Positions 38,893-63,984 of a stretch of 64,000 bases of DNA are shown here, piece after piece. The DNA is from Solibacillus sp. FSL H8-0523 (GTDB taxonomy: Bacteria > Bacillota > Bacilli > Bacillales_A > Planococcaceae): NCBI RefSeq assembly GCF_038051985.1, contig NZ_CP150291.1, forward strand, positions 3,906,001 to 3,970,000, given 5' to 3'. The notes beneath the pieces are model-generated. The model did not search any database. It was given only the letters and a program-made list of their open reading frames with translations, and was not told the origin of the DNA. A program made the translations under genes and the position numbers. The stretch's first letter is position 1, and each line of letters starts with the position of its first letter.

Positions 38893-38992
38893 TTCTTATC
38901 AAGAGAGACTGAGGGACAGGCCCTGAGACGTCTCGGCAACAGCTTATTAGCCTCGTGCCAAATCCTGCAAGTAATGACTTGAGAGATAAGAA
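38893..38992 (+). ncRNA. SAM-I (S-box) riboswitch
   Basis: TTCTTATCAAGAGAG opens the aptamer and GAGAGATAAGAA closes P1. Between them lie the SAM-I hallmarks CTGAGGGACAGGCCC, then CGGCAAC and CCTCGTGCCAAATCCTGC. SAM binding should favour the downstream terminator and switch off the methionine uptake operon. Confidence 0.95.
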
Positions 38993-49475: not shown

Positions 49476-49485
49476 AGCCGTACCT

Positions 49486-49719
49486 CTACTTCCATTTCAA
49501 TTCATATTCATGTAAATACAGACCTTCATAGCGCACCGTAAATCTATTTTGAAGCAGTTCCATCGGTGGCTGATAGAGCGAAAATGTAAAATCAGAATTC
49601 GGACCGTCCCCTGTTTGTCCGATTTGTAATAACTGATTATTTACGGTCCTTGCCTCAAATTCATTAAATCTAGAAGTCCTTGTAATCGAACCGCCCGGAT
49701 GAAAAAGACCGTTATACAA
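49486..49719 (-). CDS. Small hypothetical protein, possibly frameshifted at its 5' end
   Basis: 77 codons from TTG 49719, with GAGGG 7 bases upstream. The peptide has [21 protein letters not shown] and ends [11 protein letters not shown] better placed ATG (minus strand, near 49745, after AAGGAGTGTGTAA) opens a frame that closes after 10 codons. A single-base loss in the T5 run at about 49720-49725 would join it to this ORF. The true start is therefore uncertain. It ends 10 bases before the DUF2441 start. Confidence 0.55.
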
Positions 49720-49813
49720 AAATTCGCCCTCTACGTCGACTCATTTACACACTCCTTTTTATCAGAAGCAAACAATAAATTCCCATTTATTTATATTTTA
49801 CTCAATTTTCTGA

Positions 49814-49835
49814 TAAAATGATACTAACCTATAAT
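49814..49835 (+). promoter_or_regulatory. Candidate -10 elements for the GNAT leader transcript
   Basis: TATAAT at 49830-49835, but it would place the transcript start inside the leader SD. An upstream extended element, TGA followed by TAAAAT (49811-49819), would leave the SD intact. No convincing -35 for either. Confidence 0.4.
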
Positions 49836-49851
49836 GAAAGGATTGATATCT

Positions 49852-49884
49852 ATGAATTACACAGTAAAGGTGATTGAAAAGTAG
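49852..49884 (+). CDS. 10-codon leader peptide of the GNAT gene
   Basis: ATG 49852 opens MNYTVKVIEK and stops at TAG 49882. AAAGGA lies about 9 bases upstream. The last codons (49872-49881) form the first arm of a hairpin system whose third arm carries the SD of the acetyltransferase. Size and place match leader peptides of inducible erm and cat genes. Expression is unproven. Confidence 0.65.
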   Translation: MNYTVKVIEK

Positions 49885-49932
49885 ACACGGAGCTCTTTTC
49901 AATCCTTCAGACAAAATTACATTGAAAAGAGG
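49872..49932 (+). promoter_or_regulatory. Translational attenuator with alternative hairpins
   Basis: Segment A GATTGAAAAG (49872-49881) pairs with segment B CTTTTCAATC (49895-49904). Segment B as CTCTTTTCAAT (49893-49903) pairs equally with segment C ATTGAAAAGAG (49921-49931), which contains the SD (AGAGG) of the GNAT gene. A and C share ATTGAAAAG, so A:B and B:C exclude each other. A ribosome on the leader ORF would decide which forms. Confidence 0.75.
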
Positions 49933-49942
49933 AACAACATTT

Positions 49943-50482
49943 ATGTATCAAGATCAAGAATTAACGATTCGCCCTATTTTAGAAAACGATTTGGAACGTT
50001 TGTGGGAGCTTATTTATAAAGATGAACAGCCAGAGTGGAAGAAATGGGACGCCCCGTATTATCCACACAAGGCTATGCCGTATGATCAGTTTATCAAGTC
50101 GAATCAAGATTGGATTGGCGACGATAGCTATTGGGTCATTGAAGTAGATGGTATTGTACGCGGCATCGTTTCATATTATTGGGAGCATGAGCCTTCTAAA
50201 TGGCTTGAAATGGGCATCGTCCTTCATGAAGCTGGCTCTTGGGGCAACGGAATTGGAACGCGTGCACTTAAATTATGGATCAATCATTTATTTAATACGA
50301 TGCCACTTGTACGCGTCGGTTTCACAACATGGTCAGGCAATGAGCGTATGATTCGTGTCGGAGAAAAGCTCGGCATGCAAATGGAGGCCCGTCTTCGTAA
50401 AGTACGTTTATATGAAGGGCAGTATTACGACTCGATTCGGATGGGCATGTTACGCGAAGAATGGGAAGCGTTTAATCACTAA
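49943..50482 (+). CDS. GNAT acetyltransferase under leader-peptide control
   Basis: 179 residues from ATG 49943, SD AGAGGA in the attenuator. RimJ/RimL-like GNAT: LTIRPILENDLERLWELI, WVIEVDGIVRGIVSYYWEHEPSK, the acetyl-CoA motif near GSWGNGIGTRALKLWI, then VGFTTWSGNERMIRVGEKLGM. The target could be a ribosomal protein, an amino sugar or an antibiotic. The erm/cat-like leader is what makes a drug-related role worth testing. It precedes an M20D hydrolase gene by 18 bases. Confidence 0.88.
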   Translation: MYQDQELTIRPILENDLERLWELIYKDEQPEWKKWDAPYYPHKAMPYDQFIKSNQDWIGDDSYWVIEVDGIVRGIVSYYWEHEPSKWLEMGIVLHEAGSWGNGIGTRALKLWINHLFNTMPLVRVGFTTWSGNERMIRVGEKLGMQMEARLRKVRLYEGQYYDSIRMGMLREEWEAFNH

Positions 50483-50500
50483 CTTTTAGGAGTGGATGAA

Positions 50501-51673
50501 ATGAGCATTGCACACAAGCTACAAGCAAATTTTGATGAAATGGTGCAAATCCGTAGACATTTACACATGTATCCAGAGCTATCATTTAAAGAGGTAAATA
50601 CACCGAAGCTCATTGCTGATAAGCTACGTTCATTCGGCATTGATGTGAAGGAAAACGTTGGAGGTAATGGCGTTGTCGGCTATTTAAAAGGGACATTGGA
50701 TGGACCTACGATTGCTTTACGCGCAGATTTTGATGCCCTACCGATTCAAGATGAAAAGGATGTTAGCTACAAATCAAAAATTGACGGTGTCAGTCATGCT
50801 TGTGGACATGATATCCATACGGCCGCGCTACTTGGTGTCGCAAAAGCACTAAGTGAAGCGCGTGACGAACTTCATGGCAATGTTGTATTCATCCATCAAT
50901 TCGCGGAGGAAGTCGTTCCAGGTGGTGCAAAGGCTATGGTCGAAGCCGGTTGTTTAGATGGTGTAGATTATGTTTACGGGGCGCATGTTTCGTCGTGGTC
51001 TGAACTTGGGACGGTTCTTTTTTGCGAAGGCTATGCGATGGCTGCTGCGGATTTTTTTGAGCTCACGATTCAAGGGAAAGGCGGACACGGTGCATCACCT
51101 CACGAAACGATTGACCCGATTGTCGCGGCCGCGCAATTCGTCTTTGGTGTGCAGCCGATCGTCAGCCGTAACACAGACCCAATCGAATCTGCTGTTATTA
51201 CAGTTGGTAAAATCGAGAGCGGTACAGTCGGCAATGTCATTCCAGATAAAGCCTATTTAACGGGAACCGTACGTACGTTTAATCCCGATATACGAAATCT
51301 CGTCGAACATAAGCTCAACAACTTATGTAGAGCCATTGAAATTCAGTATGATGCCAAATTAGATTTCATCTACACACGTGGCTATGATGCGGTGTATAAC
51401 CACCCTGCTGAAACAGCCGCCTTGCGTGAAGCGGTATCCATTAATTTACCTGAACTACAAGTTGTAAACGTACCACCGCGCATGGGGGCTGAGGATTTTA
51501 CGTATTATTTACAAGAGAAGCCGGGTACATTTTTCTTCGTTGGTGGTGGCAACGAATCCATTAATGCAGTCTATCCACATCACCACCCGAAGTTTGATAT
51601 CGATGAACAGTCGATGATTAATACCGGTACTGTTTTTATCCAAGCGTTGAAATTGCATGGGGTACTTCAATAA
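50501..51673 (+). CDS. M20D family amidohydrolase (YxeP-like)
   Basis: 390 residues from ATG 50501, with AGGAG 8 bases ahead. Family motifs: LRADFDALPIQDE, SHACGHDIHTAALLG, HQFAEEVVPGGAKAMVEAG, the dimer-domain GKGGHGASPHETIDP and the late MGAEDFTYYLQEKPGTFFFVGGG. It hydrolyses an N-acyl amino acid or a similar amide; related enzymes include N-acetyl-diaminopimelate and S-conjugate deacylases. It may share a transcript with the GNAT gene upstream. Confidence 0.9.
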   Translation: MSIAHKLQANFDEMVQIRRHLHMYPELSFKEVNTPKLIADKLRSFGIDVKENVGGNGVVGYLKGTLDGPTIALRADFDALPIQDEKDVSYKSKIDGVSHACGHDIHTAALLGVAKALSEARDELHGNVVFIHQFAEEVVPGGAKAMVEAGCLDGVDYVYGAHVSSWSELGTVLFCEGYAMAAADFFELTIQGKGGHGASPHETIDPIVAAAQFVFGVQPIVSRNTDPIESAVITVGKIESGTVGNVIPDKAYLTGTVRTFNPDIRNLVEHKLNNLCRAIEIQYDAKLDFIYTRGYDAVYNHPAETAALREAVSINLPELQVVNVPPRMGAEDFTYYLQEKPGTFFFVGGGNESINAVYPHHHPKFDIDEQSMINTGTVFIQALKLHGVLQ

Positions 51674-62253: not shown

Positions 62254-62325
62254 TGACCCGTACGAGAATCGAACTCGTGTTACCGCCGTGAAAGGGCGGT
62301 GTCTTAACCGCTTGACCAACGGGCC
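62254..62325 (-). tRNA. tRNA-Glu (TTC)
   Basis: 72-base cloverleaf. Anticodon loop CTTTCAC between CCGCC and GGCGG. Acceptor GGCCCGT/ACGGGTC. The 3' CCA is not encoded. Last gene of the cluster. Confidence 0.96.
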
Positions 62326-62326
62326 A

Positions 62327-62402
62327 TGGCTCCGAAGGCAGGACTCGAACCTGCGACCTGCCGGTTAACAGCCGGATGCTCTACCAACTGAGCTACTTCG
62401 GA
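62327..62402 (-). tRNA. tRNA-Asn (GTT)
   Basis: Anticodon loop CTGTTAA. Acceptor TCCGAAG/CTTCGGA, CCA encoded. The anticodon stem has a T-C mismatch at its outer pair. Confidence 0.95.
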
Positions 62403-62411
62403 ACAATTATA

Positions 62412-62488
<77 letters not shown>

Positions 62489-62498
62489 CAAATAAAAC

Positions 62499-62572
62499 TG
62501 GAGCGGGTGATCGGAATCGAACCGACAACATCAGCTTGGAAGGCTGAGGTTTTACCACTAAACTACACCCGC
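62499..62572 (-). tRNA. tRNA-Gly (TCC)
   Basis: Anticodon loop CTTCCAA. Acceptor GCGGGTG/CACCCGC with discriminator T, CCA encoded. One of two glycine tRNAs here. Confidence 0.96.
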
Positions 62573-62575
62573 AAA

Positions 62576-62651
62576 TGGTGGGTTTGGACGGAATCGAACC
62601 GCCGACACTTAGAGCTTCAATCTAATGCTCTACCAACTGAGCTACAAACCC
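62576..62651 (-). tRNA. tRNA-Phe (GAA)
   Basis: Anticodon loop TTGAAGC between TTAGA and TCTAA. CCA encoded. Confidence 0.96.
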
Positions 62652-62659
62652 ACAAAAAA

Positions 62660-62735
62660 TGGCGGTCCCGACCGGGATCGAACCGGCGATCTCCTGCGTG
62701 ACAGGCAGGCATGTTAACCGCTACACCACGGGACC
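62660..62735 (-). tRNA. tRNA-Asp (GTC)
   Basis: Anticodon loop CTGTCAC between CCTGC and GCAGG. Discriminator G, CCA encoded. Confidence 0.96.
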
Positions 62736-62738
62736 ATT

Positions 62739-62813
<75 letters not shown>

Positions 62814-62843
62814 ACAATACTATTAAAACTTATGAAATTAAAA

Positions 62844-62936
62844 TGGAGGAGGTAGAGGGATTCGAACCCCCGCGCGGTGTTACCCGCCTGTCGGTTTTCA
62901 AGACCGATCCCTTCAGCCGAACTTGGGTATACCTCC
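62844..62936 (-). tRNA. tRNA-Ser (TGA)
   Basis: 93 bases with the long variable arm of class II tRNAs. Anticodon loop CTTGAAA. CCA encoded. Confidence 0.96.
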
Positions 62937-62946
62937 GAAATAAAGA

Positions 62947-63020
62947 TGGCTGCCGAGGGAGTCGAACCCACGACCTTTCGGGTATGAACCGAATGCTCTA
63001 GCCAGCTGAGCTAGGCAGCC
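62947..63020 (-). tRNA. Elongator tRNA-Met (CAT)
   Basis: Anticodon loop TTCATAC between TTCGG and CCGAA, as in elongator Met tRNA. CCA not encoded. An isoleucine-2 (lysidine) identity is less likely. Confidence 0.92.
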
Positions 63021-63040
63021 ATATAAAGTTATGAAAAAAT

Positions 63041-63116
63041 TGGTGGAGCCTAGCGGGATCGAACCGCTGACCTCCTGCGTGCAAGGCAGGCGCTCTCCCA
63101 GCTGAGCTAAGGCCCC
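63041..63116 (-). tRNA. tRNA-Ala (TGC)
   Basis: Anticodon loop CTTGCAC. The acceptor has the G3-U70 identity pair. CCA encoded. Confidence 0.97.
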
Positions 63117-63122
63117 ATAAAA

Positions 63123-63199
63123 TGGTCGGAATGACAGGATTCGAACCTACGACCCCTTGGTCCCAAACCAAGTGCTCTACCAAGCTGAGCTACATTCCG
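63123..63199 (-). tRNA. tRNA-Pro (TGG)
   Basis: Anticodon loop TTTGGGA between CTTGG and CCAAG. CCA encoded. Confidence 0.96.
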
Positions 63200-63218
63200 A
63201 ATTTGTCAAAACATATAT

Positions 63219-63295
63219 TGGTGCGCTCGACAGGACTTGAACCTACAACCTTCTGATTCGTAGTCAGATGCTCTATCCAATTGAGCTACGAGCGC
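63219..63295 (-). tRNA. tRNA-Arg (ACG)
   Basis: Anticodon loop CTACGAA (A34 to be converted to inosine). CCA encoded. Confidence 0.96.
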
Positions 63296-63302
63296 GTAAA
63301 AA

Positions 63303-63391
63303 TGGTGCCGAGGGCCGGAATCGAACCGGCACGGTGATCACTCACCGCAGGATTTTAAGTCCTGTGCGTCTGCCAGTTCCGCCACCCCGGC
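63303..63391 (-). tRNA. tRNA-Leu (TAA)
   Basis: 89 bases with a long variable arm. Anticodon loop CTTAAAA. CCA encoded. Confidence 0.96.
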
Positions 63392-63399
63392 ATATTTGA

Positions 63400-63471
63400 A
63401 GCGGAAGACGAGGTTCGAACTCGCGACCCCCACCTTGGCAAGGTGGTGTTCTACCACTGAACTACTTCCGC
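63400..63471 (-). tRNA. tRNA-Gly (GCC)
   Basis: Anticodon loop TTGCCAA between CCACC and GGTGG. CCA not encoded. Confidence 0.96.
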
Positions 63472-63522
63472 AAAAATGCAAGATATTTTTATACTGACAA
63501 GTTATGTAATTTTATAAAAAAC

Positions 63523-63598
63523 TGGTGAGCCATGAAGGACTCGAACCTTCGACCCTCTGATTAAAAGTCAGATGCTCTACCAACTGAGCTAATGGCTC
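63523..63598 (-). tRNA. tRNA-Lys (TTT)
   Basis: Anticodon loop CTTTTAA. CCA encoded. Confidence 0.96.
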
Positions 63599-63613
63599 TT
63601 TATTAAAAGAGAA

Positions 63614-63688
63614 TGGCTGGGGAACCTGGATTCGAACCAGGGCATGACGGAATCAAAATCCGTTGCCTTACCGCTTGGCTATACCCCA
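63614..63688 (-). tRNA. tRNA-Gln (TTG)
   Basis: Anticodon loop TTTTGAT between ACGGA and TCCGT. CCA encoded. Confidence 0.96.
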
Positions 63689-63713
63689 ACAATAAGTTAT
63701 TTATTAAAATAAA

Positions 63714-63790
63714 TGGGGCGACTGATGGGAATTGAACCCACGAATGCCGGAATCACAATCCGGTGCGTTAACCACTTCGCCACAACCGCC
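63714..63790 (-). tRNA. tRNA-His (GTG)
   Basis: Anticodon loop TTGTGAT. An extra 5' G pairs with the C discriminator, the histidine identity element. CCA encoded. Confidence 0.96.
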
Positions 63791-63817
63791 ATTATAATTA
63801 TTGTATTTATTTGAAAT

Positions 63818-63891
63818 TGGCAGGGGCAGTAGGAATTGAACCCACACTGACGGTTTTGGAGACCGTAGTTCTACCTTTAAACTATGCCCCT
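63818..63891 (-). tRNA. tRNA-Trp (CCA)
   Basis: Anticodon loop CTCCAAA. Discriminator G, 3' CCA encoded. Confidence 0.96.
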
Positions 63892-63900
63892 ATAAATAAA

Positions 63901-63984
63901 TGGTGGAGGGGGACGGATTCGAACCGCCGAACCCTAAGGAGCGGATTTACAGTCCGCCGCGTTTAGCCACTTCGCTACCCCTCC
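63901..63984 (-). tRNA. tRNA-Tyr (GTA)
   Basis: 84 bases with a long variable arm. Anticodon loop CTGTAAA. CCA encoded. First tRNA visible; the cluster probably continues beyond the window. Confidence 0.96.

Follow-up and report, generated by a model that had tools for sequence, protein, structure and literature searches.

The gene of a GNAT-family N-acetyltransferase from the soil bacterium Solibacillus sp. FSL H8-0523 is preceded by a conserved two-state RNA leader, and we are highly confident that this leader is real and most likely controls the gene at the level of translation initiation. Three segments of the leader, A, B, and C, are predicted to form two helices, A:B and B:C. Judged from the sequences, the helices are mutually exclusive, approximately equally stable by calculation, and conserved, and helix B:C covers the Shine-Dalgarno (SD) sequence of the GNAT gene. 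Modeling of ribosome positions suggests that translation of the leader represses the GNAT gene, and that ribosome arrest at the leader start codon releases it; we give this polarity roughly even chances of being correct. The initial annotation described the element as a translational attenuator of the erm/cat type, a label that is right for the anatomy of the leader and probably wrong for its polarity. The arrangement suggests that the bacteria use the switch to notice disturbed protein synthesis and turn the enzyme on.

Organization of the leader and the GNAT gene

The window analyzed here is a stretch of 64,000 nucleotides from a genome of 4.14 Mb, and all features of the GNAT locus are on its forward strand. 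The leader open reading frame (ORF), identified together with homologous leaders, encodes the peptide MNYTVKVIEK in ten codons and ends with a UAG stop (ATG AAT TAC ACA GTA AAG GTG ATT GAA AAG TAG; positions 49852–49884). It has its own SD sequence, GAAAGGATTGAT (49836–49847), recognized from its pairing energy with the anti-SD sequence; the median energy of the duplex over 53 loci goes down to −8.9 kcal/mol in 10-nucleotide windows. A promoter scan identified the hexamers TTTATA and TAAAAT, separated by 18 nucleotides and with TG before the second hexamer (49790–49819), but one such site was found compared with a mean of 3.3 in shuffled sequences, which makes it weak support by itself. An extended −10 element like that of the window was also seen by eye 5′ of the leader in other Solibacillus loci.

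An internal SD-like sequence, AAGGUGAUU (49867–49875), was located within the leader ORF from the anti-SD energies of the 53 loci, and six bases (AUUGAA) separate its GGUG from the last sense codon. Segments A, B, and C were assigned from pairing and alignment. Segment A (GATTGAAAAG; GAUUGAAAAG) occupies positions 49872–49881, and the ten-codon leader ending in this segment is as initially annotated. Segment B (CUCUUUUCAAUC, 49893–49904) is the partner of A or C. Segment C (AUUGAAAAGAGG, 49921–49932) includes the GNAT SD sequence AAAAGAGG, and the GNAT start codon is at 49943. The GNAT gene (49943–50482) encodes 179 residues that match the Pfam family Acetyltransf_3.

The gene located 18 bases 3′ of the GNAT gene (50501–51673, forward strand) encodes a putative M20-type amidohydrolase, a label given from reading its sequence, and is perhaps cotranscribed with the GNAT gene. 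A relative of the amidohydrolase is present in 14 of 110 fetched loci, corresponding to 11 genomes, all of the genus of the window. Elsewhere, the window holds a SAM riboswitch (38893–38992, forward strand) and a dense cluster of 19 tRNA genes (62254–63984, reverse strand).

Two competing helices share segment B

The initial annotation had stated that segments A and C share a 9-mer and that B can pair with either of them. This is correct: ATTGAAAAG is common to A and C, helix A:B consists of ten perfect pairs, with CTTTTCAATC within 49893–49904 as its B-side strand, and helix B:C of 11 perfect pairs, with ATTGAAAAGAG within 49921–49932 as its C-side strand. In the 112-nucleotide locus, a word of nine nucleotides, and none longer, has a perfect reverse complement both before and after it. 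Among 3000 dinucleotide shuffles of these 112 nucleotides none reached nine, one reached eight, and five reached seven. When the 64-kb window was scanned for words of at least eight nucleotides arranged in this way within 112 nucleotides, three places were found, and the GNAT locus alone extends to nine. The overall folding energy of the region is ordinary (z = −0.46), and a plain minimum-energy test would therefore have overlooked the switch.

The two helices are evenly balanced. Folded as isolated hairpins, A:B and B:C have median energies of −10.2 and −9.9 kcal/mol, respectively, and the median difference between them is −0.1 (interquartile range −2.3 to +1.35; 51 of 53 loci, with L073 and L049 left out). 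The hairpins of the window have energies of −10.2 and −10.1 kcal/mol, respectively.

The pairing of both helices has been kept in other loci. In an alignment of 50 of the 53 loci, from which L007, L049, and L073 were left out, 98.0% of the 500 cells of helix A:B are paired, compared with 37–69% in slid controls, and the corresponding values for the 550 cells of helix B:C are 91.1% and 42–67%. Covariation, which the initial annotation had proposed to check, is weak in helix A:B. In B:C there are ten cells with double-sided changes, affecting three pairs, whereas shuffled alignments contain 2.6 ± 1.4; seven of the ten cells carry one U-A to C-G change, by eye in Oceanobacillus rows, and probably represent a single event. 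In A:B there is one double change, and its score was equaled in 132 of 500 shuffles. The variation of A:B is mainly from A to G in segment A, giving G-U pairs; in the four A-U pairs formed by the AAAA of this segment, 23 cells became G-U and five are unpaired, the pattern that a B constrained by two partners should give. A segment bound to two partners can scarcely covary. The case for A:B, made from sequence comparison, is one of kept pairing more than of covariation.

Conservation and distribution of the element

The protein search for the GNAT covered 121 genomes, including that of the window, and found it at E ≤ 1e-40 in 51 of them. A scan of named genomes provided a further 80 loci, the best of 485, and the 110 loci compared (30 + 80) come from partly overlapping sets of genomes. 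The leader end was found in 53 distinct regions among the 110 loci. In 52 of these regions segments B and C are also recognizable, so that the three segments are conserved in relatives, as the initial annotation needed them to be; region L073 has the leader end without B. The leader precedes orthologous GNAT genes in Solibacillus, Lysinibacillus, Psychrobacillus, Oceanobacillus, and other genera. Because the leaders were first found using a regular expression that demanded most of the motif, the number 53 under-counts divergent leaders, and the invariance at the motif bases is inflated. Leaders L089, L152, L042, and L044 were added by a covariance-model search, and L153 was met when matches from the family and class searches were opened.

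The covariance model was built from 50 loci. When 100 loci were submitted to it, 58 matched at E ≤ 0.1, two of them in front of a methyltransferase gene. Across the bacterial family the model matched 51 places in 46 of 151 genomes. Across the class it matched five of 398 genomes: that of the window, three of the same family, and G157, whose match was rejected on inspection as not being the leader element. The searches of family and class genomes used stricter filters, which lose weak matches. We opened 20 of the matches, 19 from the family and one from the class. Thirteen run straight into a GNAT gene, L150 reaches it after an insertion as seen in L049, and L144, L145, and L151 precede something else. 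The copies in L146, L147, and L148 are located before apparently deleted or truncated GNAT genes, the remnant being recognized from its first 15 residues in L147 and by eye in L146 and L148.

Within the genus of the window, the element is present in 14 of the 16 genomes searched. In the remaining two, the GNAT is represented by just a 70% relative (G003) or not at all at that threshold (G013). In a tree of 89 GNATs, in which 53 rows were labeled as having the element, counting the B-less forms of Saccharibacillus and L073, the distribution of the element needs at least ten changes, compared with 28.2 in shuffles. The clustering in the tree together with the distribution among genomes indicates that the element is old, clustered, and sometimes lost.

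Several loci depart from the common arrangement. In Oceanobacillus oncorhynchi (L079), the leader stop is replaced by CAG, and the ORF passes B and stops just before C. In Solibacillus merdavium (L006/L034), inspection by eye shows a degraded leader SD and a leader cut short by an in-frame TAG, with all three segments still intact. The second GNAT copy of the genome of the window (L002), 68% identical to the first, retains the C-like sequence TTTGAAAAGAGG; neither a leader nor a segment B was seen by eye over the stretch that was read. The leaders of Saccharibacillus (L042, L044, L047) end in EVIxx and a stop located about 20–24 nucleotides 5′ of the GNAT start, contain a nine-base complement of the anti-SD sequence (GAGGUGAUC), and are not followed by segment B. 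The retention of a leader without B in Saccharibacillus indicates that B is not always needed.

Conserved end of the leader

A leader was called in 52 of the 53 loci, L006 being the one without a call. The leader has exactly ten codons in 41 of the 52, and in all 41 segment A is at offset 20; in six leaders, A begins 26 bases after the A of the AUG. The N-terminus of the leader peptide varies freely, and conservation is confined to the last four residues, VIEK, whose codons are near invariant, although part of them was demanded by the search pattern. The conserved end coincides with segment A, but the first two bases of its GUG do not pair with B.

These bases belong to GGUGAU, a strong match to the 3′ end of 16S rRNA with a median energy of −10.7 kcal/mol per 15-mer over 53 loci. 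All 53 loci reach −6 or lower and 38 reach −8 or lower, whereas among 9010 in-frame 15-mers taken from the GNAT genes 0.3% go as low as −10.7. In Saccharibacillus the energy is −15.8 to −16.4. In 51 of 52 leaders, the internal SD binds more strongly than synonymous recodings do on average, in a control that leaves A unfixed. It stands out less when the bases of each leader are shuffled: an equally strong site arose in a median of 7% of the shuffles, and in 5% or less for 19 of 51 leaders. The base preceding GUG is G in 37 of 53 loci. Gln codons in this position are CAG in 12 cases and CAA in none, while the GNAT genes at these loci use 38% CAG; Lys codons are AAG in 16 cases and AAA in ten, with 27% AAG in the GNAT genes, and these counts come from loci that share ancestry and are not phylogenetically independent. 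SD-like complementarity is retained in the Val-to-Gly variants L089 (−9.2) and L153 (−8.6), and was lost in L152 (−3.1), which is without an in-frame leader start.

Judged from these comparisons, a function at the RNA level, combining segment A with the internal SD-like GGUGAU, may account better for the conservation of this end than an arrest peptide would. The stop codons of the leaders are TAA in 28, TAG in 23, and TGA in one of the 53 loci, with CAG in the remaining one; UAG is thus over-represented and UGA nearly absent when compared with the GNAT genes at the same loci (TAA 39, TGA 8, TAG 6).

Position of the ribosome and the polarity of the switch

To model translation of the leader, a footprint extending from 14 bases before to 15 bases after the first P-site base was imposed on 48 loci, including the window (L073, L049, L054, and L064 were dropped from the 52 called leaders). 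The median probability of the B:C helix, P(B:C), is 0.63 without a ribosome, 0.44 with the AUG in the P site, 0.59 at codon 2, 0.87–0.95 at codons 3, 4, 5, and 7, and 0.78 with the stop in the A site. The median probability of A:B is 0.17 without a ribosome, 0.34 at the AUG, 0.29 at codon 2, and 0 in all other states. P(B:C) is higher at codon 5 than at the AUG in 44 of 48 loci, and higher at the stop than at the AUG in 35 of 48. Since B:C is likelier when the ribosome has passed codon 2, arrest in the body of the leader should hide the SD of the GNAT gene. The gain from a start-bound ribosome is modest, with P(B:C) falling from 0.63 to 0.44 and P(A:B) no higher than 0.34. In the window alone, P(B:C) is 0.33 without a ribosome, 0.68 at the start, 0.83–0.97 at codons 2–7, and 0.25 at the stop; the start-bound and stop states thus run opposite to the trend of the 48 loci, whereas the leader body agrees with it. 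An earlier model of SD openness (n = 51) gave medians of 0.26 without a ribosome, 0.32 at the start, 0.16 at codon 3, 0.15 at codon 5, and 0.23 at the stop, which differ little by ribosome position, and the pair-specific model is clearer.

We infer from this model that translation of the leader keeps the GNAT gene off. A ribosome located anywhere from codon 3 to the stop would cover A, and B would then be free to trap C. The internal GGUGAU, spaced like an SD for the last sense codon, may hold a ribosome over A. When a ribosome is arrested at the leader AUG, or none is loaded, A would remain free, A:B would form first during transcription, and C would be exposed; the start-arrested ribosome would also exclude other ribosomes from A. 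The distance between the leader stop and B, which ranges from 7 to 15 nucleotides over 51 loci, speaks against this reading, as does the Saccharibacillus leader without B. An initiating 30S subunit of Bacillus subtilis on the vmlR upstream ORF (uORF) is reported to give a toeprint 16 bases downstream of the A of the AUG (PMC9226507). The ten-codon length of the leader places A four to five bases past the edge of such an initiating ribosome. If the polarity is as modeled, the attenuator would sense a ribosome at the start codon by geometry alone, with no arrest peptide.

Comparison with known attenuators

In erm and cat attenuators, a ribosome arrested inside the leader breaks the repressing helix. 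The element described here resembles them in having a leader ORF, mutually exclusive helices, and a sequestered SD, and these parts of the initial erm/cat assignment stand and extend across genera. The polarity does not: a ribosome arrested in the leader body would here promote the SD-hiding helix (P(B:C) 0.87–0.95 at codons 3, 4, 5, and 7 versus 0.63 without a ribosome in the model of 48 loci). Furthermore, unlike in erm/cat systems, conservation of the peptide does not extend past an end for which RNA function may account, and the downstream gene is not a known resistance gene. In trp and his attenuators, segments 2:3 compete with 3:4, and once the leader has been translated to its end the ribosome occupies segment 2, so that the repressing hairpin forms. 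The logic of choosing between segments is similar, but the output here is access to the SD rather than a terminator, and there is no run of regulatory codons; a repeated conserved residue is absent from the homologous leaders.

The nearest experimental system found is toiL, which precedes topAI-yjhQ-yjhP of Escherichia coli, with a short uORF and a structure that hides the downstream SD; arrest of ribosomes at the toiL start codon by tetracycline or retapamulin is reported to release the gene (PMC12121999). The operon is annotated as encoding a putative acetyltransferase and a putative methyltransferase. Both systems combine a short uORF with an SD-hiding structure, and toiL ends in V-I-x-R-stop, the leader in V-I-x-K-stop. 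However, the toiL uORF itself pairs with the SD, and arrest anywhere in it is said to cause release (PMC12121999), whereas here segment B, in the middle, pairs with either the leader end or the SD. The host of toiL belongs to a different phylum, and the GNATs are not recognizably related beyond their fold (best match 19.6 bits); homology to YjhQ was rejected, as the match covers 16 residues with an E-value of 0.023.

Release by drug-stalled initiating ribosomes, which refold the leader and free the SD, is also reported for the vmlR uORF (MIN) of B. subtilis (PMC9226507) and the cplR uORF (MRI) of Clostridioides difficile (PMC10201436), with drugs such as lincomycin or retapamulin causing the stall (PMC9226507, PMC10201436). 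The GNAT leader shares with vmlR, cplR, and toiL a short uORF with a strong SD located before an SD-hiding structure. In the ribosome model, the start-bound state tends toward an open SD over the 48 loci, but the reverse holds for the sequence of the window. It differs from vmlR and cplR, which add a transcription terminator and control ABC-F proteins; no such terminator was found in 49480–50520. Destruction of the start codon or SD of the vmlR uORF is reported to abolish expression (PMC9226507), and an empty leader therefore need not mean induction. Searches of the open PMC literature, from which subscription papers are mostly absent, yielded no title or abstract describing an attenuator for this GNAT.

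The GNAT enzyme and its possible inducers

The GNAT is of the RimJ/RimL-like type. Its best NCBIfam match, spermidine N1-acetyltransferase, scores 36 bits where 218 are required. All NCBIfam models fall short of their cut-offs on the GNAT, and the AAC(6′) and L7/L12 acetyltransferase models, far under theirs, score lower still. PADLOC gave no match at the GNAT. In a profile comparison with solved structures, spermidine acetyltransferases scored 54 bits and the "probable acetyltransferase" 1nsl, which we take to be YdaF, scored 52. Lower matches were TTHA1799 (37.7 bits) and two aminoglycoside acetyltransferases (37.5 and 34.7 bits). No homologue was found at E ≤ 1e-10 in 50,697 phage records; at 1e-20, 21 of 72,556 plasmid records match the GNAT, 20 of them with less than 60% identity.

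The polarity suggested by the model makes drugs or stresses that arrest ribosomes at the start codon the likely inducers, namely pleuromutilins, lincosamides, streptogramin A, tetracycline, and other initiation-stage inhibitors. The enzyme would probably either inactivate a compound of this kind or help the cell to adapt to it. In a more specific version, which we consider doubtful, the strong internal SD of the leader parks ribosomes or free 30S subunits on A and so keeps the gene off, and only a ribosome frozen at the AUG empties the site, inducing a GNAT that detoxifies an initiation-stage inhibitor. A leader RNA that has been retained in dozens of species indicates what kind of signal its enzyme responds to, the property that is hardest to guess for a GNAT. 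If correct, the modeled polarity would also point to environmental Bacillales having an unrecognized inducible response to initiation-stage inhibitors, which could be a form of resistance.

Alternative explanations

Drug-dependent arrest of the nascent peptide at the leader end, as in erm/cat or msrD leaders, could open the GNAT SD instead, for example when a macrolide arrests the ribosome at the stop with Val at N-3 and Ile at N-2. The residues N-3 and N-2 before the stop have been discussed for ToiL and MsrDL (PMC12121999), and MsrDL (MYLIFM) is reported to have Leu-Ile at these positions (PMC10314930). The ending V-I-x-K/R-stop is common to the leader and ToiL (MLENVIIR, read from the K-12 sequence), and V and I persist in the Saccharibacillus leaders, where E and K do not. 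Where stop and B are 8 nucleotides apart, as in the window, the first bases of B would come into contact with a stop-arrested ribosome; P(B:C) for this state is 0.25 in the window. However, spacings of 11–15 nucleotides exceed the terminating footprint as set, and over 48 loci the stop-bound ribosome raises the median P(B:C) to 0.78. The GUGAU is needed by the internal SD too, with which the pairing kept by both Val-to-Gly variants agrees, and the freedom of the N-terminal codons argues against an arrest peptide. We therefore regard peptide arrest as decidedly unlikely. Readthrough of the leader stop or extension of the leader, caused for example by aminoglycosides, would send ribosomes into B and free C, and the GNAT would then be AAC-like. 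Masking B opens the SD best of all (median openness 0.66 versus 0.26, n = 51), UAG is over-represented among the leader stops, and the ORF of O. oncorhynchi, lacking a stop, continues beyond B. Nevertheless, a second stop is not conserved, as the next in-frame stop is located 0 to 105 nucleotides further, and the AAC models are far under their cut-offs on the GNAT, which makes readthrough most improbable.

Another possibility, a minor one, is that the leader senses the capacity for translation rather than drugs: when ribosomes or initiation are scarce, the leader would be empty, A:B would form, and the cell would make the GNAT, whose substrates may be ribosomal proteins or polyamines. The logic of the RNA needs no inhibitor, the closest solved relatives by profile are the spermidine acetyltransferases and 1nsl, and a ribosomal-protein-alanine acetyltransferase was also matched. 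On the other hand, the patchy distribution of the GNAT (51 of 121 genomes) looks accessory, and free 30S subunits could fill the internal SD even on an untranslated leader. The preferred reading remains release by a ribosome arrested at the start codon. Other types of element were rejected. A transcription attenuator is contradicted by the finding of 0 terminator-like sites in 49480–50520, and a known riboswitch by the lack of an Rfam match at the gathering score in the region, where the best chance match has an E-value of 0.96. The rejected riboswitches include the GNAT-linked variant of the guanidine-IV RNA, which is described as a pseudoknotted terminator RNA (PMC9788692), and a reading frame continuous from the leader to the GNAT was rejected because the lengths of the open frames vary.

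Methyltransferase leaders in the same family

Elsewhere in this bacterial family, genes for a class I SAM methyltransferase (209 residues in L145/L164) likewise come after short leader ORFs that have hairpins. If these leaders work likewise, the switch with a parking site would be a shared design. The match of the covariance model at a methyltransferase gene has an E-value of 0.0047 per genome, which is not significant alone with 151 genomes searched, and the shuffle fractions for an internal SD in eight methyltransferase leaders, 0.003 to 0.46, are suggestive only. Loci of this kind are L164 and L165 (for both, the oriented upstream 100 nucleotides), L169, L171, L195, L197, and L200. The leaders in genomes G066 and G051 read MKFNKEVQEK or MKFSKEVQEK before the stop and have A-, B-, and C-like segments of their own. 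In L171, and by eye in the type of L195, L197, and L200, the leader end, the next segment, and the SD region appear to be three alternative segments. A second type of methyltransferase leader ends in AWRIY or TWRIY followed by TL, QL, or SI (L166, L176, L177, L179, L180, L182, L183, L191, and L199), and its stop codon runs into the SD of the methyltransferase gene (UAGGAGG).
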